A stretch of 64,000 bases of DNA from a virus. Position numbers and translations under genes: made by a program. The stretch covers positions 1 through 64,000 of IMG/VR virus record IMGVR_UViG_3300017991_000083. The stretch is one strand, 5' to 3'. Of the stretch, positions 7,173 to 28,080 are shown piece by piece. The notes under the pieces were generated by a model. That model saw only the letters and a program-made list of their open reading frames with translations. It did not search any database and had not been told where the DNA came from. The first letter of the stretch is position 1. The number at the start of each line of letters is the position of its first letter.

Positions 7173-9284
7173 CTACTCACGAATCGACGCTATACCATCT
7201 CGCTTCACAACTGTCAAGACATCAGGGAAGTTCTGCTGGATGTTCGGCAGATGACTGATGAGCACGATGGACCTGTCCTGTTCGCGCTCTGACTCGAACA
7301 GCTCGAGCGCCGCCTCCCGGCCCGTCGCGTCCAGGTCCGCCAGGACCTCGTCGAGCATCAGGAACCCGATGCGCGACTCCATCGCACGACTGGCAACAGC
7401 ATTCAGCCCCAGGTACAGGGCCAGGGCCATCCGCTTCTTCTCGCCCCCGCTCCAGGCGTCCCACGGGCTCTCACGTCCCGTCTCCAGGTCGGTGATGAGG
7501 ATCTCGAACTTCTCCGCAGTCCCTCCCGACTGCAGCGGCACTACGGTCTCGAACCGGACACGCACCGCCGGATAGAGCTTCTCAAGGTAGCTGTTGACTT
7601 CGCTCTCGAACTCCGGGATGAAACTGTCGACTACCAGAAGCCGGATCCGCGGGAAGCCGTCGGCCCAGTACTTGGCCATGCGGATGGCCTCGTTCAGGTC
7701 CCCGATCTGCTCGCCATATTCGGCCAGCTCCTTCTCGAGCTTCTTCTTCTCGCGCTTCGCAGACTCGATCGTCGCGATGTTCGACCGGGCCTCTTCGACC
7801 ACGAGCTTGCCGGCCTCGATGTCGTTCTCCATCTCCGTGAGATCGGGCTCCTCATCCGGCAGCCCCTCGCAGGCTTTCTCAGCAGCCTTGAGCTTCTTCT
7901 TTGCCTCGAAGATACGCTCATCGTGGTGGTGCTTGCGCTCCTCGATGGTCTTCTCGACCTCGCCCTGGTGTGCCTGAGCCGCCTCGATGGCAGACATCTC
8001 GTTCTCGAGCCCGTCGATGCGCTTCTGCATCGCGGCCAACTGCTGCTGCTTCTCCTTCAGCCGGAGAAGTTCCTCGGAGTTCTTGACCCGACGGGCACTG
8101 AGTTTCTTCAGGGTCTTCGAGTACTCACGGGCCTGGGCATCGAGCTCGTCGGCGGCCTCCTTTATCGCGTCCGCTGCCTTAGCATCGATGACCCGCCGGC
8201 ACGTCGGGCACGCCGACCCCTTCTGGCCCAGGACCTCGAGGAGCTTCTTGCGCGTACTGTCACAGGAACCGCGGAGAGTTGAGGTCTTGGCGATCTTAGT
8301 CTGCAGCTCGACTTCCCTTTCCTGGCCGGCGGCAATCGCTTCGGTCACATCCTCATCACCGGCCAGAGCAGCGTAGTCAGCCCGGGCACCTTCTATGTTC
8401 TTCTTGATCGTGCCGAGCTTCTCGATCTGCGCCGCGTCCTTCTCGAGCTGCCTCTTCCAACGTCCCAGGTCCTCACTCCGCTGATCCTTCCTGGCCTGGA
8501 CCTCAGACGCCCAATACTCCGCATCAGTCCTGAGCTCGTCCGCCCGCTTCGCCTTCTCCAGGTTCGATCGCAGTGTCTCGAGGAGCCGCTCCCTTGTCAC
8601 GAGAGTCTTCTGTGCCCGGGCCAGTGCAGCATCCCAATCGTCTTCCGTCACCGACCCCATCAGCCCCTCGAGGAGCTCCGTTGCCCGTTCCTTCTTGGCC
8701 ACAACGCGGCCGCGCTCTGACTCCCGCGCACCTGCCGTTGCCCGCGCCAGGCCGGCCGCACGCTCAACGATGTGCAGCCCAAGGATCTTCCCGACAATCT
8801 CGAGCCGGTCCTTGCTCGTGCCCTCGGCGAACACCGAGACGTCGCGCTGGCCGAAGTATGCTACGGACCTGAACGTCTCGAAGTCCATCCCGGTCAGACG
8901 GTTGATGGTCGCCTGGGTGAGCGTCGGCGTCTTGGCGGTCAGGTCCTCCACGCCGGCGTCGGTCTTGCGATGGAGCTCGACGCGGTTGTTCGAGCCACGA
9001 TAACGCCGGATGCGGTAGACATCGCCGGCGACCTCGAATGACAGAACGGCGTGCCCGTTCGTCGCGCCGTGACGGATGATGGCGTCCTTGGGGATCTTCC
9101 TCAGGAGCTTCCCGTAGAACGCCCAGGCAACCAGATCGAGGATAGAGCTCTTGCCCGACCCGTTGCTGTCCGCTCCGGGCGTCTGGTTGTCTCCGACAAT
9201 CAGGAGCATCCCGTACTTCGAGAAGTCGACGGACGCCTCCTCGAACGGGAGTAGGTTCTTGATTGTCAGCTTACGGAGTCTCAT
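7173..9284 (-). CDS. SbcC/Rad50-like recombination ATPase (703 aa)
   Basis: An ABC-type ATPase of the Rad50/SbcC/T4 gp46 family. N-terminal FEEASVDFSKYG is followed by the Walker A loop near residue 42 (NGSGKSS). Long coiled coils surround a zinc hook CPTC near residue 357. The C-terminal lobe has the ABC signature SGGEKKRMALAL and the Walker B LMLDEVLADLD. At 703 residues it is short for bacterial SbcC but normal for phage. It should work with the Mre11/SbcD-like nuclease encoded at 9908-11059 to process DNA ends and hairpins during recombination-dependent replication. Confidence 0.93.
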   Translation of the reverse strand: MRLRKLTIKNLLPFEEASVDFSKYGMLLIVGDNQTPGADSNGSGKSSILDLVAWAFYGKLLRKIPKDAIIRHGATNGHAVLSFEVAGDVYRIRRYRGSNNRVELHRKTDAGVEDLTAKTPTLTQATINRLTGMDFETFRSVAYFGQRDVSVFAEGTSKDRLEIVGKILGLHIVERAAGLARATAGARESERGRVVAKKERATELLEGLMGSVTEDDWDAALARAQKTLVTRERLLETLRSNLEKAKRADELRTDAEYWASEVQARKDQRSEDLGRWKRQLEKDAAQIEKLGTIKKNIEGARADYAALAGDEDVTEAIAAGQEREVELQTKIAKTSTLRGSCDSTRKKLLEVLGQKGSACPTCRRVIDAKAADAIKEAADELDAQAREYSKTLKKLSARRVKNSEELLRLKEKQQQLAAMQKRIDGLENEMSAIEAAQAHQGEVEKTIEERKHHHDERIFEAKKKLKAAEKACEGLPDEEPDLTEMENDIEAGKLVVEEARSNIATIESAKREKKKLEKELAEYGEQIGDLNEAIRMAKYWADGFPRIRLLVVDSFIPEFESEVNSYLEKLYPAVRVRFETVVPLQSGGTAEKFEILITDLETGRESPWDAWSGGEKKRMALALYLGLNAVASRAMESRIGFLMLDEVLADLDATGREAALELFESEREQDRSIVLISHLPNIQQNFPDVLTVVKRDGIASIRE

Positions 9285-11888: not shown

Positions 11889-12173
11889 CTAGTCTGTGGG
11901 AGCCACAGCACAGCCCCCGATCTCCAGCACATATCCAGTTGCCACTCTGAACATCAGCGTGTGCGTGCCGGGTCCGGCGTAGGGAGTCCAGAACTCCATC
12001 GTCCCCGCGCTGCTCGAGACGGGCTCGAGCTCCGGCACACGAACGCCGTCGACGTAGATCTCGTATGTCGTATCCGGCATAACACCTGACAGGGTGTGGT
12101 GCATGTTCATTGGCGCCGCAGCGACGACCGCCAGAACAAGCACCACCATCCCTGTCAGGGCGGGCCGGATCAT
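11889..12173 (-). CDS. exported small beta-sandwich protein (94 aa)
   Basis: The ATG at 12173 overlaps the upstream TAA by one base. Residues 1-22 form a hydrophobic signal sequence or anchor (VVLVLAVVAAAP). The mature domain has TTYEIYVDGVRV and a Ser-rich turn and looks like a fibronectin-like strand set. Pairs with the next gene downstream as two exported products. No specific function. Confidence 0.65.
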   Translation of the reverse strand: MIRPALTGMVVLVLAVVAAAPMNMHHTLSGVMPDTTYEIYVDGVRVPELEPVSSSAGTMEFWTPYAGPGTHTLMFRVATGYVLEIGGCAVAPTD

Positions 12174-15759: not shown

Positions 15760-16456
15760 TCTGAGATCTCCTTTCTCGGGCCTTCCTACCCGCCTCCTTC
15801 TGTCGCCGGGGCCGTATCTTGTGGGGCGTGATGCCCTCGACATCGATGAGGCCCATGTGCATCGTGTCGCCGAGCAGGTCCGCTATCTTCGTCATCGTGA
15901 ACGATCGAGACGACAGCGCGTCTGTGACCTGCCTCAGAACGTCGCGGTGCCGCGTGCGCTGCCTGACCCGCAGAGCGGCCTCGCGATACTCATCGCAGAC
16001 CTTGACGATAGTCTCTCCGTGCTTGGCCGCGATCTCGTCGCGGACCACGTCGGCGGTCTTCTCGCTCGCCGCCGCGAGCTTCCTGGCCGTCGCGCTCACC
16101 AGGTCCTTTACCCGGTCCACGCTCGGCTTCTTGCCCTCCGAAACCTCAGCCCATCGGTAGAGGGTCTCTTTCGCAGAACCCTCCGTCGCATTGAGGTACT
16201 CCTGGGCCCGCGAAACGCGCTCCTCTGCATGTGCGAGCTGCGTACCGAAGAACGCCTTGGTGGCCGGCAGCTCGTCGAGCGCGTGCAGGACCTGGAACGG
16301 GTCCTCGCACCCGTCCCCCAGGGTCAGCATCTCGTCCAGGTCGACCCTGACGGTCTCCTTGCCTACAGGCAGGTCGAACACCCGCATCGAGGCAGGTAGC
16401 CTCAGGATCGAGAGCGAGTCTAGTTGGTGGAGCTTCTTGCTGGCTTCTCCGGCCAT
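15743..16456 (-). CDS. hypothetical helical protein next to SSB (237 aa)
   Basis: The ATG at 16456 follows AGGGGGGTGT. A beta-rich first 35 residues (LPVGKETVRVDLDEML) are followed by long amphipathic helices with heptad-like spacing (KTADVVRDEIAAKHGETIVKV) and a basic tail (RPRRQKEAGRKARERR). Sandwiched between polymerase and SSB genes with overlaps to both. A replication or recombination accessory role, for example a mediator, is inferred from context only. Confidence 0.65.
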   Translation of the reverse strand: MAGEASKKLHQLDSLSILRLPASMRVFDLPVGKETVRVDLDEMLTLGDGCEDPFQVLHALDELPATKAFFGTQLAHAEERVSRAQEYLNATEGSAKETLYRWAEVSEGKKPSVDRVKDLVSATARKLAAASEKTADVVRDEIAAKHGETIVKVCDEYREAALRVRQRTRHRDVLRQVTDALSSRSFTMTKIADLLGDTMHMGLIDVEGITPHKIRPRRQKEAGRKARERRSQSGAGE

Positions 16457-18405
16457 ACACCCCCCTCGAGAAAGAATCCTAGTGCCGTGACTTCGTGATG
16501 GAGCTCGGCCGCTCGCGACCAGGGCTTCACCTTCTTCTGCCCGAACAGGTCGCCCTGGTATTCCGCGCCGGCGAGCGCCGCCCGCAGGTCCGCCATGAGC
16601 TGCCACCTGGGCTTATCCATGTAGTCGAACGCGCCGGCCACGACCAGCTTCTTCGTGAGCACAGGCGACAGGTCATTGAGCCTCATGACCGTCGACATGT
16701 CGGGGAAGTGCCGCTCCTGGCGCCGGAGCAGTGACGCCAGGGCTTTCTCCCCGACCCCCTTGATAGCAGTCAGTGGGACACGGATGCCCCCGTCCTCGAT
16801 GGCGAATCGGGCAGCGCTCTTCCGCACATCGATGGGCAGGACACGAATCCCCATCCTCCGGCACTCGTCGAGCCCGCGGACTATGGACCTATTCCTCTTC
16901 TCGTTCGCGCCCTCGAGCGCGTTGTTCAGGAACGCACACATGAACTCCGTCGGGTAGTGGACCCTGAGCCACATCGTCTTGTAGGACCACTTCCCGCCGT
17001 AGCAGACGGCGTGCGACTTGTTGAATGCGTAGCGCGTCGCCGACTCCATGCGCTCCCATATCTCATCGGCCACGTCAGCGGGCACAACGCCCTGACGCTG
17101 ACAGCCTTCGATGAACATATGCTTGATGGCCTGGACCTCGGACCCGCCGCGGGCGAGCTTCTTGCCGATCATCCTGCGCGTGCGGTCGGCCTCCGAGGTC
17201 GACATGCCGGCGAGGGCGCGACAGATCTCGATGAACTGCTCCTGGTAGACGATGATGCCGTAGGTGTCCGCCAGGATGGGCTCGAGCGACGGATGCAGAT
17301 AGTGGGGCGTCCTCGAGGCGTAGTCGGCGACGAAGTCGATGGCGCCAGGGCGGCCGACGGCCGAGAGGTCGTAGAGCTCCCGGAACGACCGCGGCTGAAC
17401 CTCGGCAACGGAACGGCGGGACGTCTCGGTGTCTATCTGGAATCCGCCGAGCACGTCGCCCGCACACACGGCGTCGTAGACGGCAACATCCTCGAAGTCG
17501 ATGTTGTTCAGGTCCTCCAGGGTGTGGGGCCCATCCTCGTCCTCGATGAGCGCGAGGCAGCCCATCACCATCGTTATCGAGTCGACGCCCAGGATATCGA
17601 ACTTCACGAGTCCGAGCTTCTCGACCTGGTCCTTGTCCCACTGCGTCATGTAGACCTTTTCGCCGCCCGAGTCTGTGATGCGGAGCGGCATCAGAGTGTC
17701 GATAGGCGCCGGCGCTATCACCACGCCGGCCGCGTGTCGGCCCGTGTGTCGCGGCCTCGCGAGCAGGGTCTGGACCAGCTCGTAGAGGCCAGGATGCTTC
17801 TCGAGGTAGACCTTCAGCCGGTCGGGGTCGTCTGCATCGTCGAGCGTCAAAGGCTTGCCAGTCTCCTTGTCGACGTACTCTCCGTAGCGGAAGCAGGACT
17901 TGACCTTCTCGAGCGTCACCTGCGGGACCCTCAGAGTCCGCCCGGCCTCGTCGATGGCGCCACGGAGCCCGAAGGTCGCGAACGAGATGATCTGAGCGAC
18001 GTGCCGGGAACCGTACGTGTCCCTGATGTAGTCGAAGATCTCCTGGCGACGGCTATGCTGGAAGTCGAGGTCGATGTCCGGGGGACTGACTCTGGCGGGG
18101 TTCAGAAACCGCTCGAAGACCAGCCCGAACTCGAGCGGGTCCAGGTGCGTCACCCTGAGGCAGTAGCAGACGCAGGACGCCGGAGCGCTCCCGCGCCCGT
18201 CGTTCATGCCGATGCCCTGCTCTCGGGCGAATCGGCAGAGGTCGTAGGCTATCAGGAAGTACGGCGCCCACCCGCCCTCTTTGATGACCGAGAGCTCGTA
18301 GTTGCAGCGCTCCTCGTGCGCGGGCGTCAGTGCCCGGTCACGCAGGCCCTGGGTGGTGAGCATGGCGAGATGCTGCATGGGATCGCCAGGAAATGCCTTC
18401 TTCAC
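16420..18405 (-). CDS. DNA polymerase III alpha, catalytic fragment (661 aa)
   Basis: Contains palm, fingers and HhH region but no PHP domain. GRGSAPASC, then PDIDLDF near residue 105 and KFDILG near residue 269 supply the three catalytic Asp. Later come RTRRMIGKKLARGG, AFNKSHAVCY and the helix-hairpin-helix KGVGEKAL. It ends at the ALGFFLEG motif and so lacks the OB-fold and tau-binding parts of cellular DnaE. A GTG start at 18405 follows ACGGGGGCA. The missing N-terminal PHP domain is encoded at 18959-19825, with an unrelated gene in between. Confidence 0.93.
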   Translation of the reverse strand: MKKAFPGDPMQHLAMLTTQGLRDRALTPAHEERCNYELSVIKEGGWAPYFLIAYDLCRFAREQGIGMNDGRGSAPASCVCYCLRVTHLDPLEFGLVFERFLNPARVSPPDIDLDFQHSRRQEIFDYIRDTYGSRHVAQIISFATFGLRGAIDEAGRTLRVPQVTLEKVKSCFRYGEYVDKETGKPLTLDDADDPDRLKVYLEKHPGLYELVQTLLARPRHTGRHAAGVVIAPAPIDTLMPLRITDSGGEKVYMTQWDKDQVEKLGLVKFDILGVDSITMVMGCLALIEDEDGPHTLEDLNNIDFEDVAVYDAVCAGDVLGGFQIDTETSRRSVAEVQPRSFRELYDLSAVGRPGAIDFVADYASRTPHYLHPSLEPILADTYGIIVYQEQFIEICRALAGMSTSEADRTRRMIGKKLARGGSEVQAIKHMFIEGCQRQGVVPADVADEIWERMESATRYAFNKSHAVCYGGKWSYKTMWLRVHYPTEFMCAFLNNALEGANEKRNRSIVRGLDECRRMGIRVLPIDVRKSAARFAIEDGGIRVPLTAIKGVGEKALASLLRRQERHFPDMSTVMRLNDLSPVLTKKLVVAGAFDYMDKPRWQLMADLRAALAGAEYQGDLFGQKKVKPWSRAAELHHEVTALGFFLEGGVWPEKPARSSTN

Positions 18406-18902
18406 TGCCCCCGTCTTTCTCGCTTGTAGAGGTCCGTGATGTCCTCAAGCGTCACATCGTCGGCTGAGACTGCAAGCGGCCGCAACTTGTCTCCGACGGC
18501 GGAGCGCTCGGCGGCCCCTGCCCTGGAGCTTTGCCCCCCCGCCTCAGGCTGACTGCCAGCGGTTATGGGAGCCTCGCCCGCGGGCGGAGCCGGTCGAGCG
18601 CCCGCCTGACGGTCGGCCTCATACCCCTCCCCCGGCAGAAGCCGAAACGGTTCGTCGCCGGCGCCGCCTAGAACGTCAATCCCCCTCTTCTTCGTCCGGT
18701 GAAGGACCGTATCCACGAGAGCGCGATGGTCGCGGCTCTCGATCTGCGATTCGACCACCGCTATCAGCTCGTTCCTCGTGTAGCCCAGGCGCAACAGCTC
18801 GAATACCTTGTACTGCTTCCCTGGTCGGAACGGATTGGGCGCCTCGGCTGCAAACTTGCTCGAGGGCTCCGGGTGGCGGGCGGTCCCATTGTCACCAGCC
18901 AT
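18402..18902 (-). CDS. hypothetical protein between polymerase halves (166 aa)
   Basis: The start at 18902 follows AAGGGAG. An N-terminal helical domain (KVFELLRLGYTRNELIAVVE, like a small DNA-binding or dimer fold) is followed by a disordered Pro/Ala/Gly linker and a short acidic helix at the end (VTLEDITDLYKRERR). No homing-endonuclease or intein motif is visible. Its position, inside the split polymerase operon and 4-base overlapped with the catalytic fragment, suggests a role in the polymerase complex, possibly bridging the two halves. That is inference. Confidence 0.65.
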   Translation of the reverse strand: MAGDNGTARHPEPSSKFAAEAPNPFRPGKQYKVFELLRLGYTRNELIAVVESQIESRDHRALVDTVLHRTKKRGIDVLGGAGDEPFRLLPGEGYEADRQAGARPAPPAGEAPITAGSQPEAGGQSSRAGAAERSAVGDKLRPLAVSADDVTLEDITDLYKRERRGQ

Positions 18903-18928
18903 ACCGAGTCTCCCTTGTCTGTGCCCTC

Positions 18929-18946
18929 ACTCGATATACGCCAATC
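18929..18946 (-). promoter_or_regulatory. 18-bp conserved intergenic element, copy 1
   Basis: ACTCGATATACGCCAATC (plus strand) is identical to 30739-30756. Read leftward it becomes GATTGGCGTATATCGAGT and ends 27 bases before the start of the 18402-18902 gene. It lies within the 56-bp gap after the polymerase PHP gene. TATATC could serve as a -10; no consistent -35 is shared. Candidate phage-specific promoter. Confidence 0.55.
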
Positions 18947-18958
18947 CAGCGGAATCGG

Positions 18959-19825
18959 TCAGGCGGTTTCTGCGCTCCTGAACGTCGGATACTTCGGCGA
19001 AGTGTCCATTTTGACGTGCATAACGCTATCTGCGATGGCCACAGCCCGGTCCATCGCTTCCGCCAGGAAGCCCCGGTCCATGTCCGAGTAGACGTTCCGG
19101 AAGGTCTCACAGAGCTCGGCGCGGGTCTTGAGCCAGAGATTCGACGTGTTCGCCTCCAGCCGACCCTTCGTGTTCACGAGCATGATGTCCTTGTGCATCT
19201 TCACCTGCGACCGGGTCGCGTAGTGGACGTCGTTCGTCACGACGACAGGAACCCCGTGCTTCCTCGAGAAGTCCACGATCTGATAATTCAGCTCATGGAC
19301 CTCAGGGATTGCGAGGGGCATCAGCTCGATGAACGCACGGTCGGGGAACATCTCGGCGAGCTGGCGATAGAACGCCAGAGCCCCGGCCTCATCGCCGGCT
19401 GCCAGAAGTCGCTGTATCTTGCCCATCATGCAGCCGCCAAGCACGACGAGACCCTCGGCATAGGTGCCGAGGGTCTCCAGGTCGATGCGCGGGCGACGAA
19501 AGAACCCTTCAACGAAGCTCGCGGTCGAGAGCTTGCACAGGTTCTCGTAGCCCTTCTTCGTTCTAGCGAGCACGGTCAGGTGCGTGACCGGGCCCTTCTC
19601 GGAGAGGTCGTCCGCCAGGTAGAACTCGCACCCGAAGATCGGCTTGACCTTGTGGCGCTCACAGGCCATCGCATGGTCGAACGTCCCGTACATATTCCCG
19701 TGGTCCGTCAGCGCGAGAGCCGACATCTTCTTCGCCGCCGCGGCCAGTGCGAGCTCGTCAGGAGAGCAGACCCCGTCGAGGAGCGAATACCAGGAGTGGA
19801 CGTGTAGGTGGACAAATGGTCTCAT
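18959..19825 (-). CDS. DNA polymerase III alpha, PHP fragment (288 aa)
   Basis: The N-terminal PHP domain of a C-family polymerase as a separate protein. The metal ligands of the proofreading-type PHP all appear present: HLHVH, LLDG, TDHG, GCEF, the His of HLTVLA, the Cys of LGGCMMG, and NDVH. It ends at KYPTF, the point where cellular DnaE passes from the PHP to the palm. The ATG at 19825 overlaps the previous stop. Likely associates with the catalytic fragment encoded at 16420-18405 and may be a 3'-5' exonuclease. Confidence 0.9.
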   Translation of the reverse strand: MRPFVHLHVHSWYSLLDGVCSPDELALAAAAKKMSALALTDHGNMYGTFDHAMACERHKVKPIFGCEFYLADDLSEKGPVTHLTVLARTKKGYENLCKLSTASFVEGFFRRPRIDLETLGTYAEGLVVLGGCMMGKIQRLLAAGDEAGALAFYRQLAEMFPDRAFIELMPLAIPEVHELNYQIVDFSRKHGVPVVVTNDVHYATRSQVKMHKDIMLVNTKGRLEANTSNLWLKTRAELCETFRNVYSDMDRGFLAEAMDRAVAIADSVMHVKMDTSPKYPTFRSAETA

Positions 19826-20037
19826 GCCTTGTGTAGGAACCCCTCTCTCACGAACCGCTTGATCTTGCCCTTCTCGCTCTTCGGACACCCGTCGACCTCG
19901 CACGACGCCGCGATGCCGTAGACGCCCATCGGATAGAACATGTAGTAGTCAGCATCATCCGGCAGCGCCGACAGCGACGTGATGATCGCGATGCGCGTGC
20001 CGGCCGGTGTCTCGAACACGAGCGGCGGGCGTTTCAG
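19822..20037 (-). CDS. hypothetical small protein, possible CTG start (71 aa)
   Basis: The frame reads LVFETPAGTRIAI ... CEVDGCPKSEKGKIKRF and looks protein-like, but has no ATG before residue 29. A CTG at 20037 sits 7 bases after a perfect AGAGGAGG; a GTG at 20019 is the alternative. It overlaps the end of the sigma-like gene by 83 bases, so a frameshift extension of that gene is another explanation. Function unknown. Confidence 0.45.
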   Translation of the reverse strand: MKRPPLVFETPAGTRIAIITSLSALPDDADYYMFYPMGVYGIAASCEVDGCPKSEKGKIKRFVREGFLHKA

Positions 20038-20641
20038 CTCTCGACCTCCTCTGGCAGAACTGCTTGACCTCGGCGAACATGCGCCCAACTGCACGGCGGC
20101 GGCTCGGGCTCCGTTCGCCGAACATCTCGAACGCAACGTCTGAGAACGTCGCGCCAGTAGCGAGGAGCTCGAGGACCTGGGCACAGTCGGCCTTGCCGGC
20201 CTCTCGAAGCTCGCCGGCGAATGTCTCGATATCGATCCGGGCTCTGACGGCAGGGCCATGTGACTGCGTCTGCCAGGTCAGGCCGTAGTAGGATGCGTCG
20301 GGACGGGGATTCCTCTTCTGAGCGGCACCGCGACGGACCGCCCTGCACACGTGCTTGTCATGCACGAGTCTGAAGACCCAGGCCGCGAACGGTGCGCCGC
20401 GGCTCTCGTCCCAACGCACATGTCCCGTAGTGTCACACGCCGCGTGCCAGACGGCGTCCTGCACCCACAGAAGGAGCTCGTCTTCCTGAAGGGCCTGGTC
20501 GGAGAGCTCCTCGGCTCGCCGCCTGGCCCACGCTCGCACCTTCTCTGCTTCGAGGAACTCAGTGACGAGCCGCTCGAGCGCGACGTCGTCGCCGTCCCTC
20601 ACTTGCCCCACAAGGTTGTGAATCGCCATGTCGGATACCAC
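19955..20641 (-). CDS. sigma-factor-like protein (228 aa)
   Basis: A GTG start at 20641 follows GGAGG with a 6-base spacer. Residues 12-95 follow the pattern of sigma70 region 2: ALERLVTEFLEAE, then LWVQDAVWHA and APFAAWVFRLVHDKHV with basic residues after it. A second helical unit near residues 150-190 (CAQVLELLATGATFSDVAFEMFG ... RRAVGRMFAEV) resembles region 4. The last 30 residues look less protein-like. A phage sigma factor or a degenerate relative is inferred; it could read the conserved 18-bp elements. Confidence 0.5.
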   Translation of the reverse strand: MVSDMAIHNLVGQVRDGDDVALERLVTEFLEAEKVRAWARRRAEELSDQALQEDELLLWVQDAVWHAACDTTGHVRWDESRGAPFAAWVFRLVHDKHVCRAVRRGAAQKRNPRPDASYYGLTWQTQSHGPAVRARIDIETFAGELREAGKADCAQVLELLATGATFSDVAFEMFGERSPSRRRAVGRMFAEVKQFCQRRSRAETPAARVRDTGRHAHRDHHVAVGAAG

Positions 20642-20682
20642 GGTCAGCCTCCGGAACGGGTCCGCGTCGGTATCTGGCGGGG

Positions 20683-20982
20683 TCAGTCGTCGGTAGGAGT
20701 TGGACCAGGGCCCCCTGCCATCTGGATCTTGATGAGTTCACGTTCGACCGCTCGACGAATGATGTGCGACTCTGTCACCTTGAGCTGGCCCAGGTCAATG
20801 ACCTGTTCCCCGGTGCCAGACGTCACAGACCGCACGCTGGAACGGAGCTGCTCGGTCTCGTGCTCGGCCGCCCGCCTGAGCCAGTCCTTGATCTCGGGCG
20901 TCGTCTTGGCGACCAGTCTAGGCCGGGCTTCCCGTTTGCTCGAACGTGATGTCTTCCGACCCTTCCCATCTCGTGTATTCAT
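20683..20982 (-). CDS. small basic protein, ribbon-helix-helix-like (99 aa)
   Basis: The start at 20982 has an excellent AGGAGGG. A basic N-terminus (KGRKTSRSSKREARPR) precedes TTPEIKDWLRRAAEHE and ESHIIRRAVERELIKIQ, a strand-helix-helix layout like Arc/CopG DNA-binding proteins. It precedes the sigma-like gene, so it may be a transcription regulator. It overlaps the zinc protein gene upstream by 65 bases, which is unusual here. Confidence 0.6.
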   Translation of the reverse strand: MNTRDGKGRKTSRSSKREARPRLVAKTTPEIKDWLRRAAEHETEQLRSSVRSVTSGTGEQVIDLGQLKVTESHIIRRAVERELIKIQMAGGPGPTPTDD

Positions 20983-21217
20983 CGTTGCACCCTCCTACAA
21001 CGAGAGTGTAACACGAGTCCCATTCCGTGTCAACAGGAAAAGTCCACTGGTTCGTCGAGTCGCAGGGCTCGTAGTGCATGGGCGGGGCAAGGCCCAGGCC
21101 AATGCAGTGAAGACAGGCATAGGAACCGTCTTCACAGAGGTAGAGACAGAGGACCATGTAGCCGCAAACGGGGCACTGAATGAGATGGGGATCGGGTGAG
21201 TTTGTGTAGCTCGGCAT
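20918..21217 (-). CDS. zinc-ribbon protein (99 aa)
   Basis: Begins MPSYTNSPDPH at 21217 with CAGGGGGC as ribosome site. CPVC and CLHC about 22 residues apart form a zinc ribbon with an extra CLYLC between. The C-terminal third is acidic. Its leader contains a strong multi-stem structure (21235-21300) ending about 18 bases before the start. Function unknown. Confidence 0.65.
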   Translation of the reverse strand: MPSYTNSPDPHLIQCPVCGYMVLCLYLCEDGSYACLHCIGLGLAPPMHYEPCDSTNQWTFPVDTEWDSCYTLVVGGCNDEYTRWEGSEDITFEQTGSPA

Positions 21218-21234
21218 GACGCCCCCTGGGAGAG

Positions 21235-21300
21235 GGTGTCGCGCACGCGGACAAGTTCTGCGCCGACCACAGAACCGGGGGCTGCCCGGCACGCGACACC
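21235..21300 (-). ncRNA. structured leader: three-stem RNA element
   Basis: The gap between two genes folds into three nested stems: GGTGTCGCG (21235-21243) with CGCGACACC (21292-21300), GTTCTG (21255-21260) with CAGAAC (21270-21275), and CCGGG (21275-21279) with CCCGG (21285-21289). This gives a three-way junction of 66 nucleotides in the leader of the zinc-ribbon gene. It is not a convincing tRNA (no T-arm, wrong loop sizes). A cis-acting control RNA is the likely reading. Confidence 0.45.
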
Positions 21301-21304
21301 GAAC

Positions 21305-21808
21305 CTACAGGTCGAACTCGCACAGCTCCACTCGGCAGAAGACGTCCCTGGGGTAGGGGCCGTGGATCTGCACCTGGATAAAGCCTACTCCCGCACAGTC
21401 ACGAACTAGCGCCAGCCGCCCATGCGCGAGGAGATCGTCGGGCCCGTCCGGGACCCTCTTCGACTTCTTCGGGAACAGGGCGTCCTCAATGCCCTTGACG
21501 ACGTTGCCGGTATCACCATGCTGCTTGCCCGCGAACTGGATCGCACAGTCGACGTAGTACTGGACGTTCCCCTCTCGAATCTCTGGCCAGACAACGTCGC
21601 GGATCCACTGCCAGAGGTCAAGGGGGATGGACTCGATGATGTAGTCCTTGAAGCCGATGTAGCGAGCGTACTGAGTTGGGCGCCCATCCTTCGTCCTCAT
21701 CATCTGCCACTTCTGTCGCGCAGTCGTCCTAGTCCAAGGGATGGGATTGCCTTCAGGGTCGTACTGGTTCCCTCTAACCTCGAAGGAAGCAAGGACCAGA
21801 GGTTTCAC
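21305..21808 (-). CDS. RusA-like Holliday junction resolvase (167 aa)
   Basis: The key pattern is GDTGNVVKGIEDALFP ... PDDLLAHGRLAL: Asp, Asn, Lys, then the DAL motif and a later Asp-Asp, the RusA acidic site plan. Preceded by beta strands (VLASFEVRG). A GTG start at 21808 has GGGAG 9 bases away. RusA-type enzymes cut four-way junctions and fit the recombination and replication neighbours. The family match is from motif spacing and moderate. Confidence 0.6.
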   Translation of the reverse strand: MKPLVLASFEVRGNQYDPEGNPIPWTRTTARQKWQMMRTKDGRPTQYARYIGFKDYIIESIPLDLWQWIRDVVWPEIREGNVQYYVDCAIQFAGKQHGDTGNVVKGIEDALFPKKSKRVPDGPDDLLAHGRLALVRDCAGVGFIQVQIHGPYPRDVFCRVELCEFDL

Positions 21809-21830
21809 AGAGGATCACTCCCTCAGGGGT

Positions 21831-22838
21831 CTATGCGGCTCCTGGTCGACGTACCCTATCTAGCCTCTGAGAGAGGCTACGGCTGCCAGGATAGGAGATT
21901 TCGCTCCCCTGAGAAAGTGAAAGTGATAACAGCTTCAGGAACGAGTCACGGTCCGGGACCTCGCCCGGGTCCTTGCACGGACCGAGGTAGAGAACGGACT
22001 GCTTGACCGCGCTCCCGCGCAGCGCACGGAACCCTTCGCCAGTTCCGACACGGCCGGCAACGTCGTTGTCCAGCGCCCATATCACTTCGTCGGCACGCAG
22101 CAGCATCTCGATCTGCCTGTTGCTCGGACGCGCACCCAGGAGCGCCACGACCTCGAACCCGAACGACCAGACCTTGAGAGCATCGAAGATGCCCTCGACG
22201 ACAATCACCGAAAGTAACCTCTGTCTCTGTGCGACGCGAAGAATCGGCGGCGTGAACAGGGGAACCAGGTGCTGGCCGTAGAGGACCTCGGACTTCTTCG
22301 CCCCCTTCGGGTAGCGATACTGCTTGCCGACCAGGGAGCGCGTTGCCTCGAACATGACCGGACCCATGTTCGGGCTCCGGACCGGGAAGTGTAGTAGCTC
22401 CCCGTCCCGCCCTCTCGACGTCCATAGGTCCCAGGACCGAGCCAGATCCGCTATCTGGCCGGCGTCGAACCCGCGCCCCTTCAGGTATTCGACCCCGCGC
22501 TCAGAGAGCGTACCATAGGACCTCGAGCGCGTCTTCCCGCCGAGCTCCAGGCGATGTATCGGGGCCTCGTGCCGGCGCAGGTCCCGGACCCTGTCGCCGA
22601 GTCTGTCGGCCCCCTGGTATCGCAGACTCGACGCATCGTAGCCCCACATCTTCAGGAGCTTCGCGAGCGATCCTCCACCACAGACGAAGCAGTTGTAGAC
22701 CCCCTTCTCGACATTCACCGAGAACGACGGGGTCGACTCGTCGTGGAGCGGGCAGCAGCACCAGACCTCGTCATCGCGGATCGCGACCTGGTCACAGCCC
22801 TGCTCCTCGAGGATCTCCGCTATCTTTTCGAGCGTCAT
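21831..22838 (-). CDS. DnaG-type primase (335 aa)
   Basis: CHC2-type zinc finger near residues 28-54 (CPLH ... CFVC) followed by a TOPRIM domain: VVEGIFDALK near residue 213 and the Asp motif ALDNDVAG near residue 257. No C-terminal helicase-binding domain is obvious, giving a compact phage primase. The ATG at 22838 has GGGAG upstream and overlaps the preceding zinc protein by 47 bases. Makes RNA primers for the DnaB-type helicase and polymerase. Confidence 0.92.
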   Translation of the reverse strand: MTLEKIAEILEEQGCDQVAIRDDEVWCCCPLHDESTPSFSVNVEKGVYNCFVCGGGSLAKLLKMWGYDASSLRYQGADRLGDRVRDLRRHEAPIHRLELGGKTRSRSYGTLSERGVEYLKGRGFDAGQIADLARSWDLWTSRGRDGELLHFPVRSPNMGPVMFEATRSLVGKQYRYPKGAKKSEVLYGQHLVPLFTPPILRVAQRQRLLSVIVVEGIFDALKVWSFGFEVVALLGARPSNRQIEMLLRADEVIWALDNDVAGRVGTGEGFRALRGSAVKQSVLYLGPCKDPGEVPDRDSFLKLLSLSLSQGSEISYPGSRSLSQRLDRVRRPGAA

Positions 22839-23094
22839 CAGGGAATCTCCCACAAGGGCTCTCCCACAAGTCGAGGTTCCTATCGAACAGGGCGCTGCCA
22901 CAGACCTGACACTTCACGGGGCTCACGTTACGCCAATAGACCTGCCCGCAACAGAAGCACGTCCAGTAGTGCTCGAGGAGATAGTGCATCAGCGCCGCAT
23001 CTACATCCCTCGCGATGGCCAAAGCGAACTCGTTGCGGACCTCCCGCATGAACTCGTGATCGTCCTCCGGCCACTCCTTCGGGGGAGTCTCCAC
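22792..23094 (-). CDS. zinc-ribbon protein (100 aa)
   Basis: The core reads WPEDDHEFMREVRNEFAL, then CFCCGQVYW ... CQVCGS, a zinc ribbon. The start is uncertain: GTG at 23094 follows the stop of the tiny gene upstream by 5 bases; ATG at 23139 (GAGGG upstream) would add 15 residues but overlap that gene. Ends 47 bases inside the primase gene. Function unknown. Confidence 0.55.
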   Translation of the reverse strand: METPPKEWPEDDHEFMREVRNEFALAIARDVDAALMHYLLEHYWTCFCCGQVYWRNVSPVKCQVCGSALFDRNLDLWESPCGRFPDDARKDSGDPRGAGL

Positions 23095-23099
23095 TTTTC

Positions 23100-23195
23100 C
23101 TATGACACTTCGATGTCCCAGGGATCCCTGTGACCGCATTTCTTCTTCGCCCTCTCTATCAGCCAGAACATGAGGCAGATCAGCAGGTAGCGCAT
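23100..23195 (-). CDS. tiny membrane protein (31 aa)
   Basis: The ATG at 23195 directly follows the TAG of the gene above and has GGAG 9 bases upstream. The product starts MRYLLICLMFWLIE and continues with a Lys-rich stretch, so it is a single membrane helix followed by a positive cytoplasmic tail. It exactly fills the gap between two zinc or small-protein genes. Function unknown; at this length the call rests on spacing, ribosome site and hydrophobicity. Confidence 0.45.
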   Translation of the reverse strand: MRYLLICLMFWLIERAKKKCGHRDPWDIEVS

Positions 23196-23411
23196 CTAGT
23201 AGAGCTCCGTCGGTTGCTGCCGTTGCCTGTTCCCCTCGATGACGATGCGCCTCAGCATCGCGTCGTCCGCCTCGGCCGTCCAGGTCCGCAAGGGCAGACT
23301 GCAGTCCCACTCCTGGAAGTTAGGGATACCGTCCGGAGTTTGGTCTCCGCGGCCTAACCCCAGTCGTCGACTCCCGTGACCGTCGGATTCGACCCCGGCC
23401 ATCTGTCCCAT
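23196..23411 (-). CDS. hypothetical protein (71 aa)
   Basis: The start at 23411 (MGQMAG) is supported by GGAGGG 9 bases upstream, though it overlaps the preceding gene by 58 bases. No other start with a ribosome site exists in this frame before residue 50. The C-terminal half (ADDAMLRRIVIEGNRQRQ) is helical. Function unknown. Confidence 0.45.
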   Translation of the reverse strand: MGQMAGVESDGHGSRRLGLGRGDQTPDGIPNFQEWDCSLPLRTWTAEADDAMLRRIVIEGNRQRQQPTELY

Positions 23412-23638
23412 CTCACTATTCCCTCCGGCACCGACTCGTCGACCAGCACGGGGATTACCCCGAACAGCCGGCCGACGTACCGCCGCCCCGTCAGTGCCGC
23501 CAGGACGCAGTCGACCAGCTCCGCTGCCTGGTCACGCTTCTTGACTGTCCCCTTCTGGACCACAGGGCCCTCGAGAACGGCGTCGATCGCACGCTCCCGG
23601 AGCCCGGGGGTCAACAGCCGCATGGGCAGAAACTCCAT
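23354..23638 (-). CDS. hypothetical protein (94 aa)
   Basis: The ATG at 23638 follows GGAGG. A helical protein with LRERAIDAVLEGPVVQKGTVKKRDQAAELVDCVLAAL and a C-terminal acidic segment. No motif recognised; lies in the string of small genes between helicase and primase. Confidence 0.6.
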   Translation of the reverse strand: MEFLPMRLLTPGLRERAIDAVLEGPVVQKGTVKKRDQAAELVDCVLAALTGRRYVGRLFGVIPVLVDESVPEGIVRWDRWPGSNPTVTGVDDWG

Positions 23639-23648
23639 CGCGCCTCCG

Positions 23649-23846
23649 CTACTCCGATTCGTACTCTTCCTTGGTCAAGTAATCGCCCACGCCCAAGCTA
23701 GGCGGGACGCAACCGTCACAGCAGAACACCACGCCACCCGCCAGAGACTTCTCCACACCGCCCAATGATGGGATGGTCGCCGCCCTGGTAGGTGACTTCT
23801 TCTCGCAGACCTCACACAGCCTCGGCCACGGTCTTCTTATGCCCAT
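23649..23846 (-). CDS. small zinc-binding protein (65 aa)
   Basis: Begins MGIRRPWPRLCEVC at 23846 behind AAGGGGCGGGCGAG. Two Cys pairs, CEVC and CCDGC, about 28 residues apart suggest a zinc knuckle. One of many small Cys-rich proteins in this phage; function unknown. Confidence 0.65.
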   Translation of the reverse strand: MGIRRPWPRLCEVCEKKSPTRAATIPSLGGVEKSLAGGVVFCCDGCVPPSLGVGDYLTKEEYESE

Positions 23847-23870
23847 CTCGCCCGCCCCTTCCTGGAGACC

Positions 23871-24236
23871 TCAGTCTTGCGGCGGGCACAGCTCATGTCC
23901 CGTCGCACTGTAGACGCACAGTGACGTGTCCAGACCGCTATCCCATCGGGCCCAACGCCAGTTCTCGGGCGACCAGTCGTCGACCACATGATACGTGCTC
24001 TCGCCCTCGCCGACCTTGCCCCACTCGTACGGGATGCCTTCGTGGACCTCACGCACGCCCATTATCACAGACCCGCGGCGCCAGACCTCGATGCTGTTCT
24101 CCTTGAACACGTAGGACCGGATGCCCGTCGGATCATACGGATCGTCGAACCTATCGCGCATCGTCTGGCCCATCTCCCGGATCGCGCTGCACCCGGCCAG
24201 GGCCAGGGCCAGGACTACCACCAGCACCACTCTCAT
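23871..24236 (-). CDS. putative lipoprotein (121 aa)
   Basis: The ATG at 24236 follows GGGGGTTGAT. Residues 1-15 form a short hydrophobic signal ending in the lipobox LALAGC, so cleavage and lipid attachment at Cys16 are expected. The mature part is soluble with Trp-rich EWGKVGEG and ENWRWARWDS. Phage lipoproteins can act in superinfection exclusion or as outer spanin subunits; neither can be decided here and no lysis partner is adjacent. Confidence 0.75.
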   Translation of the reverse strand: MRVVLVVVLALALAGCSAIREMGQTMRDRFDDPYDPTGIRSYVFKENSIEVWRRGSVIMGVREVHEGIPYEWGKVGEGESTYHVVDDWSPENWRWARWDSGLDTSLCVYSATGHELCPPQD

Positions 24237-24237
24237 A

Positions 24238-24402
24238 TCAACCCCCAGGATCGCGGCCCCACATCAGGAACAGGCTGATCCCCTTCAGGCTCACGCCCAT
24301 ATCGCCGCCCCTGGCCGGCGCCTTCTTCGGCCGGGGGCGAAACCACCAGTGCCTCGGCTCCTGCTGCCCCTTGGTCAGTCCGACCGTGAAGAGATAGACC
24401 AT
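24238..24402 (-). CDS. hypothetical small protein (54 aa)
   Basis: The ATG at 24402 overlaps the helicase TGA (TGATG) and has GGAGGAGAG as ribosome site; the stop lies 2 bases from the lipoprotein start. The product has a Pro/Arg/Lys-rich middle (FRPRPKKAPARGG) between two short hydrophobic stretches (VYLFTVGL and ISLFLMW). It fills the gap exactly, which supports it as a real gene. Function unknown. Confidence 0.55.
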   Translation of the reverse strand: MVYLFTVGLTKGQQEPRHWWFRPRPKKAPARGGDMGVSLKGISLFLMWGRDPGG

Positions 24403-25835
24403 CAGAACTCTCCTCCCATCTTGTGTTCGCCCAGGATCCGCTTCCTCATCTTCGGCGAGTCCAGTCTACAGACCCGGAAATCGGGGAAGAGCAGGCCGTA
24501 CTTCTCAGACCCGAAGTCTCGGGCAGCGACCCATCCGAAGTTCAGGGTCCCCTCTTCCTCGTTCTCCTTGGTCTTCGTCAGGTAGCAGACGGCGTTCGCG
24601 TGCTCACGCGGCCGCGGCGAGTAGGCGAAGTCCTTCTGCGTCAGGACCTTCTTGCCGGCAGACTCCGTCTTGGCCTGATTTGCCGTCACGATCGCAAGTC
24701 CAGACGGGCGGTCCGGCGCCTCATCGAAGTGGACGTAGCCCTTCGCGAGCTGAGACAGGTCCCAACTGATGGTGCCCAGGGACTGCCACTCGCTGTCGTC
24801 GCCGCGGCGCTCCGCCGGGGTCATGTCGTTTAGGTAGTCGACTGTGACGACGTCGACGCGACGCTGATACTTCTCCTCCGCCCGCCGGACCTCAGCCTCG
24901 ATGGCCGGGACCGTGCAGGACCGACCCTTGAACTCGACGATCTCGTAGATGCCGCCGCGCTTCGCCAGGGTCGCGAGCCGTTTCTTCAGCAGCTTGAAGT
25001 CGGCCGGCGACATCGCCGGATGCTCGGGGTCCTGGCCGAGCGGATCGCGGAAGCTCGAGAACCTGATCCCGCTCCGCCGCGAGAAGAACCTGTTGGCCGC
25101 CTTGTATCGGTCCATCTCGATCGTCACGTGGAGCGTGAACTTGCCCTGCATCGCGACGTTGTGGCCGACCTCGAGTAGGAACGTGCTCTTGCCGACCTTC
25201 GCACAGGCCAGCATGATGATGAGCTCCTTCGGGAACAGACCGCCGGTCGAAGCGTCGTAGAGCCCTATGCCCGTCGGGATGCCGGCGAAGCGCTCGGGCT
25301 CGCGGATCTTCTGCTTGATGACCTGGCGATGGTGTCCGAAGTCCTCAACGGGGTTCGTCCGGAAGACGGTGATCTCGCCAGTCCCGAACTCGCGGCTCGC
25401 GAGCACCATCTCCCGCTCGACGGCGTCGATGTCGCCCTTCTCGAAGCTCCTGGTCGCCGAGTCCAGGCGGACCCAGGCGCGACGGACCTTCTCCAGACGC
25501 CGGAGCTCCTCGCAGTAGAGCTGGAACGCCTCAGTCTCGCCCTGGCCCAGGTTCTGGCCCAGGGCGTAGACCTTCTCGACCAGGGCCTCAACTGCCGCCA
25601 TCTTCGTCGGCGACAGGTTGAACGTCGCCTTCTTGACGATCAGGTCGGACGCCGGCTGTTCCTTGCCCTTGTAGTCGCGCAGGACCCCGAAGAGACGCCG
25701 GCACGAGTCATCGCTGAACGAGTCGGCCGAGAGCAGCGCGAGGTTGCTCGCGAGCTGCTTCCGAATGTCCCGCCGCAGCATGAGCGCGAGAACGGTCTGC
25801 TCGAAGTCCAGGTTCTCGAACTCGACGTTAGGCAT
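24402..25835 (-). CDS. DnaB-type replicative helicase (477 aa)
   Basis: The start at 25835 follows GAGGAGAACG. A helical N-terminal domain (residues 1-110) is typical of DnaB, then a RecA-like motor with Walker A ACAKVGKST near residue 210 and Walker B VTVDYLND near residue 332. Further motor motifs include VTANQAK. It would unwind DNA ahead of the split polymerase and recruit the primase encoded at 21831-22838. Confidence 0.92.
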   Translation of the reverse strand: MPNVEFENLDFEQTVLALMLRRDIRKQLASNLALLSADSFSDDSCRRLFGVLRDYKGKEQPASDLIVKKATFNLSPTKMAAVEALVEKVYALGQNLGQGETEAFQLYCEELRRLEKVRRAWVRLDSATRSFEKGDIDAVEREMVLASREFGTGEITVFRTNPVEDFGHHRQVIKQKIREPERFAGIPTGIGLYDASTGGLFPKELIIMLACAKVGKSTFLLEVGHNVAMQGKFTLHVTIEMDRYKAANRFFSRRSGIRFSSFRDPLGQDPEHPAMSPADFKLLKKRLATLAKRGGIYEIVEFKGRSCTVPAIEAEVRRAEEKYQRRVDVVTVDYLNDMTPAERRGDDSEWQSLGTISWDLSQLAKGYVHFDEAPDRPSGLAIVTANQAKTESAGKKVLTQKDFAYSPRPREHANAVCYLTKTKENEEEGTLNFGWVAARDFGSEKYGLLFPDFRVCRLDSPKMRKRILGEHKMGGEF

Positions 25836-26217
25836 CGTTCTCCTCGGGGGGCACCAGCATATCGACCCTGTCCATGTGCAGGCCCAGGTTCGGGACGATG
25901 TGCGACAGCAGGCACGGACTCGTGACCAGGTCAAACGACTCCGTTCCCTTCCCCGCGACAATGGCGACCATCACCGTCTGCGGGACCCTCCGGCCGTCCC
26001 CCGACTCGATGACGCTCTGACCCTTGATGTGCAGCTCCGTCACCCGTCCCTCGAACATCGCTCGCAGGAACCTGTCGAACGGCCTCTGGCTTTCCTGACT
26101 CTCCCGGCTCTCCTGGCAAACCTGCTGAGCCCGTGGTGGCGCTGGCGGCGGTGCCGGCTTACGGGCGCCTGCAGGCGGCGGCGTCGGCTCCTTGCGATCT
26201 CCTGGCATCCCGCTCAT
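25828..26217 (-). CDS. hypothetical protein with Pro-rich N-terminus (129 aa)
   Basis: The ATG at 26217 has AAAGGGGGG upstream. Residues 8-35 are Pro/Ala-rich and probably disordered, followed by a compact domain (FDRFLRAMFEGRVTELHIKGQS ... VMVAIVAGKG) of alternating strands. It overlaps the helicase start by 8 bases and is the first gene below the tandem-palindrome gap at 26236-26302. Helicase-associated role inferred from coupling only. Confidence 0.65.
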   Translation of the reverse strand: MSGMPGDRKEPTPPPAGARKPAPPPAPPRAQQVCQESRESQESQRPFDRFLRAMFEGRVTELHIKGQSVIESGDGRRVPQTVMVAIVAGKGTESFDLVTSPCLLSHIVPNLGLHMDRVDMLVPPEENDA

Positions 26218-26235
26218 CTGTCCCCCCTTTAGCAT

Positions 26236-26302
26236 ATTCGGCCAAGTTCCCGAACTTAGCCGTATTCGGTTGATTTCCCGAACATCAACCCATTCCGGTT
26301 GA
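26236..26302. repeat. three tandem 28-bp repeats with palindromic cores
   Basis: Units begin ATTCGG or ATTCCGG at 26236, 26264 and 26292, exactly 28 bp apart; the third is partial. Each of the first two forms a dyad around TTCCCGAA: AAGTTC-CC-GAACTT in unit 1, and GGTTGAT ... ATCAACC in unit 2. They occupy most of the gap upstream of the helicase operon. Operator array or structured leader. Confidence 0.7.
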
Positions 26303-26307
26303 ATCGC

Positions 26308-26583
26308 CTAACCGCCGCCCGCCTCCGCGGCCGGCCGCACATGTTCCTCAGGGATCCCCTCGTCAAGAGCGGGGACCCTCGCATTCAGCGGGAAGATTGC
26401 GTAGACCCACATCCACTCGATCGGGGCTCCGGGCCCGGCCGTCCTCGCCTCGACCTGGCTACTGTGGACCTTCCCCGTCGACCTCTGCCCGCCGCGATAC
26501 CAGACCGTCTCCCCGATCGCATACGCTGGCCGTCGCGGGACATCGGCCTCTCGCTCGTAGACGGCGTGCCGAATCATCCCCAT
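26308..26583 (-). CDS. hypothetical protein, SH3-like (91 aa)
   Basis: The start at 26583 has GGGAGGGATAGCTC upstream (a second Met two codons later is possible). YAIGETVWYRGG resembles the start of SH3-type barrels, with a short strand set and an acidic Pro-rich tail. Positioned directly after the candidate initiator. Function unknown. Confidence 0.6.
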   Translation of the reverse strand: MGMIRHAVYEREADVPRRPAYAIGETVWYRGGQRSTGKVHSSQVEARTAGPGAPIEWMWVYAIFPLNARVPALDEGIPEEHVRPAAEAGGG

Positions 26584-26586
26584 GAG

Positions 26587-27501
26587 CTATCCCTCCCGCA
26601 TCTCCGCACAGGCGGCCCGGCGCAGGCAGACCCGGCAGATCTTGTCGCCGGGATCGTAGAGCCGCCAGGCCAGTGAGTCCTCGATCTCGATGCCGCCCTT
26701 CTCGGCCTTCCTGCACCGGAGCGACCCGTTGCCCTTCGTCACGTCGACTCTGCCCCGCAGCTCCGAACGGCGACGCTGCACTTCGGTCAGGAACCCGTCC
26801 TGGACCGCCGGCGAGCAGATCGCGCCGATGCCGATGTTCTCCAGGGACTCGGACTTGGTCTCGAACAGCCAGACCAGGTAGCCCCTCGCGTCGGTCTTCG
26901 ACAGCCCGAGCCGAGCGAAGCGGCCGAGGACGTCGCGCTTGAACCGGGCCAGGACCTGGCCCTGGCGCTTCTCCCCGGCGACCGAGCCCTCGAGCTCCAG
27001 CGAGACATGCCCGTAGTGCTCGACGTAGAGCTCGTTCGCGAACCGGAGAAAGTCGACCGAGGTCCACGAGTCAACCGGCTTCGGCTCCGGGTCGGGGAGA
27101 CTCGGCCCCCCTCCCCCCCCTTTAGGGGGGGGAGAAGGGGGGCCGCCCGCCGCGCCAGCACTTTTGCGGACAGCTTTCGTAAGCAGGGCGATGGCCGCCT
27201 GGACGTCCCGGTAGTCCTGGTCGCCCTCGGCGGTCGGATCCAGGGGCCGGTAGACCGCGAGCGAGTCCTGGCCCTCGGGGCGGTGCCGCTCGAGCAGCCC
27301 GTGATCGTCGAGCGCGTGCAGGTGGCGCCGGGCAGTCTCGACGTGAACGCCGCGGATCTCCGCGAACCGGGCCAGTGTCCGGGACGTGACGGGCACCACG
27401 TCCGAGACGATCCGCAGCAGCAGCCAGGTCGTTTTCGCGGCGTCTTCGAGCTTCGAGTAGCCGAGTAGCAGCACCATCAGGGCATCAAGCAGCTCCACCA
27501 T
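26587..27501 (-). CDS. winged-helix protein, candidate replication initiator (304 aa)
   Basis: Residues 30-75 form a winged helix (SRTLARFAEIRGVHVETARRH then LDDHGLLERH). A Pro/Gly linker near residues 120-135 is encoded by long C and G runs. The C-terminal domain is followed by four Cys (CRKAEK, CRVC, AAC). Two genes upstream of the helicase gene, this layout (N-terminal DNA binding, linker, C-terminal domain) resembles lambda O-type initiators or helicase loaders. Start at 27501, or GTG one codon later, behind GAGGAGGAG. Function is inferred. Confidence 0.6.
   Translation of the reverse strand: MVELLDALMVLLLGYSKLEDAAKTTWLLLRIVSDVVPVTSRTLARFAEIRGVHVETARRHLHALDDHGLLERHRPEGQDSLAVYRPLDPTAEGDQDYRDVQAAIALLTKAVRKSAGAAGGPPSPPPKGGGGGPSLPDPEPKPVDSWTSVDFLRFANELYVEHYGHVSLELEGSVAGEKRQGQVLARFKRDVLGRFARLGLSKTDARGYLVWLFETKSESLENIGIGAICSPAVQDGFLTEVQRRRSELRGRVDVTKGNGSLRCRKAEKGGIEIEDSLAWRLYDPGDKICRVCLRRAACAEMREG
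27104..27144. repeat. C6/C8-G8/G6 inverted repeat inside initiator-like gene
   Basis: GGCCCCCC (27104-27111) then T, eight C, TTTA, eight G, AGAA and GGGGGGCC (27137-27144) form a nearly perfect giant hairpin. Opposite strands carry long G runs with G-quadruplex potential. It encodes the Pro/Gly linker. The homopolymers would be slippage-prone. Origin or regulatory role is possible by analogy with the lambda origin, which lies within the O gene. Confidence 0.7.
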
Positions 27502-27527
27502 CTCCTCCTCGGCCCCGTGTAGGGCAG

Positions 27528-27630
27528 CTTACGCAAGTCAGCACAGATGCGGGTCAGCCGCATATCTGCGGACCGCACGGTCCTTACAAACTTGGCGCCC
27601 TCTGTAAGTATAACTTCTAGGCGCTTACAG
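27528..27630. promoter_or_regulatory. control region with GTAAG repeats and hairpins
   Basis: The 141-bp gap upstream of the winged-helix gene holds four CTTAC/GTAAG elements (27528, 27583, about 27604, 27624). Two of these form an inverted repeat CTGTAAG (27602-27608) and CTTACAG (27624-27630). There are also palindromes CCGCA-TATC-TGCGG (27558-27571) and GGACC-GCAC-GGTCC (27570-27583). TATACT on the minus strand (27612-27607) could be a -10. The dense dyads indicate a regulated promoter. Confidence 0.5.
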
Positions 27631-27642
27631 TGAGCTGTCAGG

Positions 27643-28080
27643 CTAACCACAGTCGCACCCTTTCAGCGTATCTGCTGGTTCCCGCCCGTGCCATCCGACC
27701 ACCAGGGTCCAGCGCCAGAGCGGGACGAGAATCTCCCCCTTCCAGCACGGCGCCGCAGGCCGGATGAACCTCTTGCCGGCGCGTCGGCCGGACACCATCA
27801 TCGCCCATACGATCCGGTCGTCCATCACGACCTCCTTGACGAGTGCGTCTACAGCCTTCTCCGCCAAGGCTGACGCTATCGTCTTGAGAAGTGGAGCGGC
27901 TGACCCCTCTAGCTGTCGGACGTCGCGCTCCAGCTCTATCCTGCGAAGCACTGTCAGGGCGTGCTTGAGACAGATCTGGCGCTGGTTCGAGAACGACTGT
28001 CTGAACGGGAGTAGCCCTATGTCCTGGGCCATCTCGTCGTAGGCCTGCTCGAAGATCAGCATCCTCTGTCGGCTGTCCAT
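27643..28080 (-). CDS. hypothetical protein (145 aa)
   Basis: The ATG at 28080 follows AAGGAGACGTTG. Helical N-terminal two-thirds (FEQAYDEMAQDIG, LKHALTVLRRIELERDVRQLEG), then a strand-rich end with Trp and Cys (PLWRWTLVVGWHG, CDC). Upstream of the control gap for the winged-helix gene, so it ends that transcription unit. No family recognised. Confidence 0.65.
   Translation of the reverse strand: MDSRQRMLIFEQAYDEMAQDIGLLPFRQSFSNQRQICLKHALTVLRRIELERDVRQLEGSAAPLLKTIASALAEKAVDALVKEVVMDDRIVWAMMVSGRRAGKRFIRPAAPCWKGEILVPLWRWTLVVGWHGREPADTLKGCDCG

Follow-up and report, generated by a model that had tools for sequence, protein, structure and literature searches.

A strong bulged hairpin is predicted in the spacer between a RusA-like and a cysteine-rich open reading frame of a virus replication module

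The window, i.e., the whole stretch of DNA that was analysed, covers bases 1 to 64,000 of a virus record that is 91,366 bases long. Its replication module consists of minus-strand genes which encode, in 5' to 3' order, a DnaB-like helicase (24402-25961), a primase (21831-22901), a RusA-like Holliday junction resolvase (21305-21808; phrog_6537, E 2.1e-10), a 99-aa cysteine-rich, zinc-ribbon-like putative ORF (20918-21217), a second 99-aa ORF (20683-20982), and the PHP part (18959-19903) and core (16420-18405) of polymerase III alpha. The polymerase is split in two, with a 166-aa ORF (18402-18902) lying between the PHP part and the core. A 228-aa ORF at 19955-20641 weakly matched a sigma factor (E 0.00033), its 20.3 bits falling short of the cut-off of 198. 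Further upstream, an inverted repeat at 21815-21920, with 15-nt arms that are 87% complementary and 76 nt apart, reaches from the last part of the primase ORF into the stretch preceding the RusA-like ORF; by eye, its 3' arm holds the likely RusA Shine-Dalgarno (SD) sequence.

The RusA-like stop codon and the ATG of the cysteine-rich ORF (21217, minus strand) are separated by a spacer of 87 bases, within which a bulged rod-like hairpin is predicted (21235-21300, minus strand). The rod begins 4 bases past the stop codon. A sequence-only reading had placed a structured RNA in the gap before the zinc-ribbon gene, about 18 bases from its start; the placement was right, and by our count 17 bases separate the rod from the ATG. 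An SD-like AGGGGG, read from the sequence, lies 4 bases before the ATG (21222-21227, minus strand). GGGGG occurred just upstream of 35 of the 122 genes called over the whole record, compared with 2.5% of 5000 random places in its first 82 kb; AGGGGG thus appears to be a usual SD of this virus. For this count and for the survey of gaps described below, we used our own hexamer-score gene calls, from which two plus-strand calls were removed, one of them a 41-aa ORF overlying the cysteine-rich ORF, and to which the cysteine-rich ORF was added by hand.

The hexamer-score gene caller had in fact favoured the 41-aa plus-strand ORF over the cysteine-rich ORF. The latter scored 22.6, as against -66.2 and -67.4 for the other two forward frames; in the portion that lies outside the next gene it scored 19.7, and one reverse frame there scored 16.5. 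Coding support for this ORF is therefore moderate and ambiguous. No family match was obtained in PHROGs, Pfam or NCBIfam, and the 'zinc ribbon' label derives from its CxxC pairs. An in-frame extension of the ORF across the rod had a coding score of -16.9.

On the gene strand, the minimum free energy (MFE) structure of the 66-mer is a single bulged rod of -43.2 kcal/mol, made up of 18 pairs interrupted by one single-base bulge, a 6-nt one-sided bulge, a 9-pair apical stem and a 5-nt loop. The sequence-only reading had instead proposed a three-way junction built from three perfect stems of 9, 6 and 5 bp. All three are present in the sequence, namely the 9-bp basal stem (5' arm 21292-21300, 3' arm 21235-21243; inverted repeat I5, 100% complementary), the 6-bp stem (21255-21260/21270-21275) and the 5-bp stem (21275-21279/21285-21289), all on the minus strand. 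However, base 21275 is common to the 6-bp and 5-bp stems, so these two cannot both form in full, and the disjoint versions are 9/6/4 or 9/5/5. The rod retains the 9-bp stem and, within its apical stem, the 6-bp stem, and it loses the 5-bp stem.

When folded on the gene strand, the three-way junction built from those stems reached -25.8/-25.6 kcal/mol, approximately 17 kcal/mol short of the rod. The complement, folded as RNA, gave an MFE of -32.1 as against -43.2 for the gene strand, and there the best structure was indeed a three-way junction (z -2.23), although one that uses another 6-pair stem with one G-U pair. Mirrored onto the gene strand, this junction contained one A-C mismatch and reached -30.0 kcal/mol, still approximately 13 kcal/mol less stable than the rod. 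The fold differs between the strands because five of the 27 rod pairs are G-U. We therefore rejected the three-way junction on the gene strand, as by the energy model it is 13-17 kcal/mol less stable than the rod. A genuine junction, formed co-transcriptionally or when bound, would draw on the three stems in the sequence and on the best plus-strand fold, but two of its stems compete for one base and no downstream gene was called on the plus strand; we regard it as highly improbable. This case carries a caution, in that stems picked by eye can lose out on the strand that is really transcribed, since G-U pairs are strand-specific.

The sequence-only reading had further held that such clean nesting of stems seldom arises from GC content alone. 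This stands for the spacer, since 5000 shuffles of the gap sequence yielded the three-stem motif 0 times; for a whole record as long as this one it does not. By a strict search, disjoint 9/6/5 stems occurred nowhere in the 91,366 bases, and the 9/6/4 and 9/5/5 motifs occurred once each, in both cases at the target; per block-shuffled record, 0.4 and 0.2 occurrences, respectively, were expected (30 shuffles each). Moreover, 9-bp arms within 66 bases were found as 112 seed pairs in the record, as against 39.65 on average in 20 shuffled ones.

The claim of a strong RNA structure in the intergenic leader was supported. The -43.2 kcal/mol of the rod 66-mer was reached in none of 200 shuffles (z -4.88) and in 0 of 6000 dinucleotide shuffles. 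This 66-base pick is stronger against shuffles than the full gap, for which the corresponding figure was 54/6000; with 131 nt of context, z was -2.70 (2/200 shuffles). When the best 66-mer at any offset of the shuffled gap was taken, -43.2 was reached in 2 of 4000 shuffles, a frequency that becomes ~0.02 after correction, as 41 gaps were examined. These were the gaps of 38 to 420 bases, so that gaps of 776, 934 and 2124 bases fell outside the set. Amongst them the target gap ranked 7th (z -2.84). A z below -2 was found for 10 of the 41 gaps and for 13 of 123 length-matched coding controls, i.e., the intergenic gaps of the record somewhat exceed its coding stretches in structure. The position of the element, the predicted rod, its excess over shuffles and the stronger predicted fold of the gene strand are thus all observed.

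Compared with the rest of the record, the rod is less exceptional. Folding of minus-strand 66-mers at every offset over the first 82,192 bases, i.e., short of the repeat-rich end of the record, showed that 42 of 82,127, belonging to five sites, reach -43.2. The target is the weakest of the five, and three of the four more stable sites lie within called genes. Amongst windows of similar G+C, 3 of 5244 reached this value, the target included. By a composition-regressed score (80-mers, window, both strands), the target was only the 34th non-overlapping site. After correction for composition, both strands of the window have their strongest fold at 12081-12160, a long inverted repeat in a weakly scored 94-aa ORF call. 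The main rival to a functional reading is that the rod is a stable fold without function, in a sequence of 73% G+C. The more stable sites inside genes, the modest composition-regressed rank, the fraction of a three-stem motif expected per shuffled record and the frequency of 9-bp inverted arms throughout the record all fit this explanation, whereas the matched shuffles (0/6000 and 2/4000) and the clean placement between stop codon and SD speak against it; on balance, we consider it possible but rather unlikely. As a fold, the strong intergenic rod is probably real, of an ordinary kind and with a putative function.

None of 4227 Rfam families matched the window at the gathering threshold, and the two weak matches obtained within 20900-22000 at E up to 5 did not overlap the hairpin, which led us to reject an Rfam assignment, whether as a riboswitch, a leader or another known family. 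A tRNA-like element was rejected as well, as ARAGORN called 0 tRNA or tmRNA genes in the window. An intrinsic terminator was rejected because the G+C-rich stem has no adjoining T-run on either strand, CTCTCCCAGG being what follows on the gene strand; a scan of 16000-28000 gave three terminator-like sites, none of them at the hairpin. The perfect 9-bp arms would also suit an inverted repeat acting at the DNA level, as a protein site or an origin hairpin, and as single-stranded DNA both strands fold (-21.8, 2/200 shuffles; -18.6, 5/200). However, the G-U pairs make the fold strand-specific and not a symmetrical palindrome. Taken together with the missing T-runs and the absence of a scanned terminator at this position, this makes a terminator or attenuator, or a DNA-level repeat, very unlikely.

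The sequence-only reading had also suggested that the element may control translation. In our predictions, the SD is mostly paired, its partners being the bases directly upstream of it, with the rod not involved; across four rod-containing contexts, its unpaired probability was 0.06-0.19. Masking of the whole rod gave unpaired SD values of 0.26 and 0.11 in two matched contexts, versus 0.19 and 0.12 unmasked. As this barely alters SD pairing, pairing of the rod itself with the SD was rejected. In contrast, masking of the 5' arm alone lowered the unpaired SD from 0.19 to 0.03 and the AUG from 0.61 to 0.36, and in a transcript starting past the rod, for which the downstream context differs, the values were 0.00 for the SD and 0.16 for the AUG. 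Since loss of the 5' arm lowers access to SD and AUG while masking of the whole rod hardly alters pairing, the rod may help to stop its own 3' arm from getting in the way. Translation control at the cysteine-rich gene is thus weakly supported at best. It could operate through sequestering of the 3' arm, coupling to rusA translation, or protein or ligand binding, and the geometry would allow it, as a ribosome terminating 4 bases before the rod should be within reach and the ATG lies only 17 bases beyond. Nevertheless, the SD is already mostly paired when the rod is present, the rod changes this little as a whole, and no Rfam family matches; overall, this alternative appears doubtful. A more specific version, in which the rod serves as an operator where the cysteine-rich zinc-ribbon-like protein would bind its own leader hairpin and restrain its own production, or production of the replication module, strikes us as far-fetched. 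If true, it would amount to an unrecognised viral RNA-binding autoregulator.

Relatives of the locus were sought in collections that may omit records close to that of the window. Seven protein scans and two DNA searches yielded no locus with the pair of RusA-like and cysteine-rich ORFs. Scans of viral contigs with the cysteine-rich ORF, RusA-like protein, primase and polymerase singly gave no confirmed relative; these scans demand an exact 8-residue match and may miss moderately diverged relatives. From a scan with a RecA-like protein, the best 80 of 147 loci were kept, with best segments of 31-62% identity, and a polymerase alignment of the best 80 of 438 loci showed 30-36% identity among the matches listed. 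Genome contigs searched with RusA gave two loci (30% identity over residues 5-78). Of 180 loci besides the record of the window, 0 had a match to the cysteine-rich ORF at E up to 0.01, and two, namely this genome-contig pair, matched RusA at the same threshold. In the phage collection there was no DNA match, and the RusA protein search returned two partial matches of 26% identity. Finally, a pattern search for the basal stem found 18 stretches, whose interiors were by eye unlike the target and 14 of which fall within one or more open frames. On these grounds, the 18 stretches were taken as chance occurrences.

Near-identical leaders are present in three other minus-strand spacers of the record, at 85182-85233, 86047-86100 and 87180-87230 (L003:5182-5233, 6047-6100 and 7180-7230). 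Each has a tall G+C hairpin, the sequence of which varies among the copies while remaining paired in all three folds, followed by a conserved CCCCCGCAAGGGGG word that carries an SD and directly precedes the start codon. In two of the three leaders, the CCCCCGCAAGGGGG word folds as a second hairpin. This set is possibly a better case than the hairpin at 21235-21300. Three long stretches of the record (82194-84317, 87729-88662 and 90753-91366) are without called genes and, by eye, rich in short G+C-rich repeats, e.g., ATCGCTCGCAAG and units containing CTCGAG.

The reading we tentatively prefer, at a probability of roughly 45%, is that the rod belongs to the ordinary intergenic elements of mRNA, by which a transcript is segmented or protected. 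In the module's minus-strand transcript, the rusA-like and cysteine-rich genes would be separated by one long bulged stem-loop formed by their spacer. This stem-loop may be a site at which the transcript is cut, i.e., a double-stranded substrate of the RNase III type, and/or a barrier guarding the 3' terminus of the segment upstream, and such cutting or protection could give the two genes separate mRNA levels. We infer co-transcription of the two genes, folding in vivo, and cleavage or protection. The rod fits between the stop codon and the SD, as this reading would have it.

Known systems offer partial parallels. The R1.1 hairpin originates from T7 early mRNA, where it is located between genes, and has an unpaired stretch separating its lower and upper stems, as does the predicted rod. 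Like RNase III signals of this type, the rod is predicted as a long, double-stranded intergenic hairpin, with 27 pairs in the 87-base spacer. The rod differs from R1.1 in that its 6-nt bulge is one-sided, and the likeness is one of predicted shape. R1.1 is a model RNase III substrate and, like the rod, an irregular hairpin of ~60 nt (PMC6121014). In bacterial operons, intergenic stem-loops of selective RNA processing and stabilisation have been reported at processing sites, e.g., in the cip-cel operon of Clostridium cellulolyticum (PMC4423207). As described there, such operons resemble our locus in having a strong stem-loop in a spacer of co-directional genes; they are unlike it in that processing sites and transcript-abundance steps were measured, whereas the rod is predicted and its genes are viral (PMC4423207). 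If it has a function, the rod would add one further case to the intergenic hairpins of mRNA, here within a replication module of phage type.
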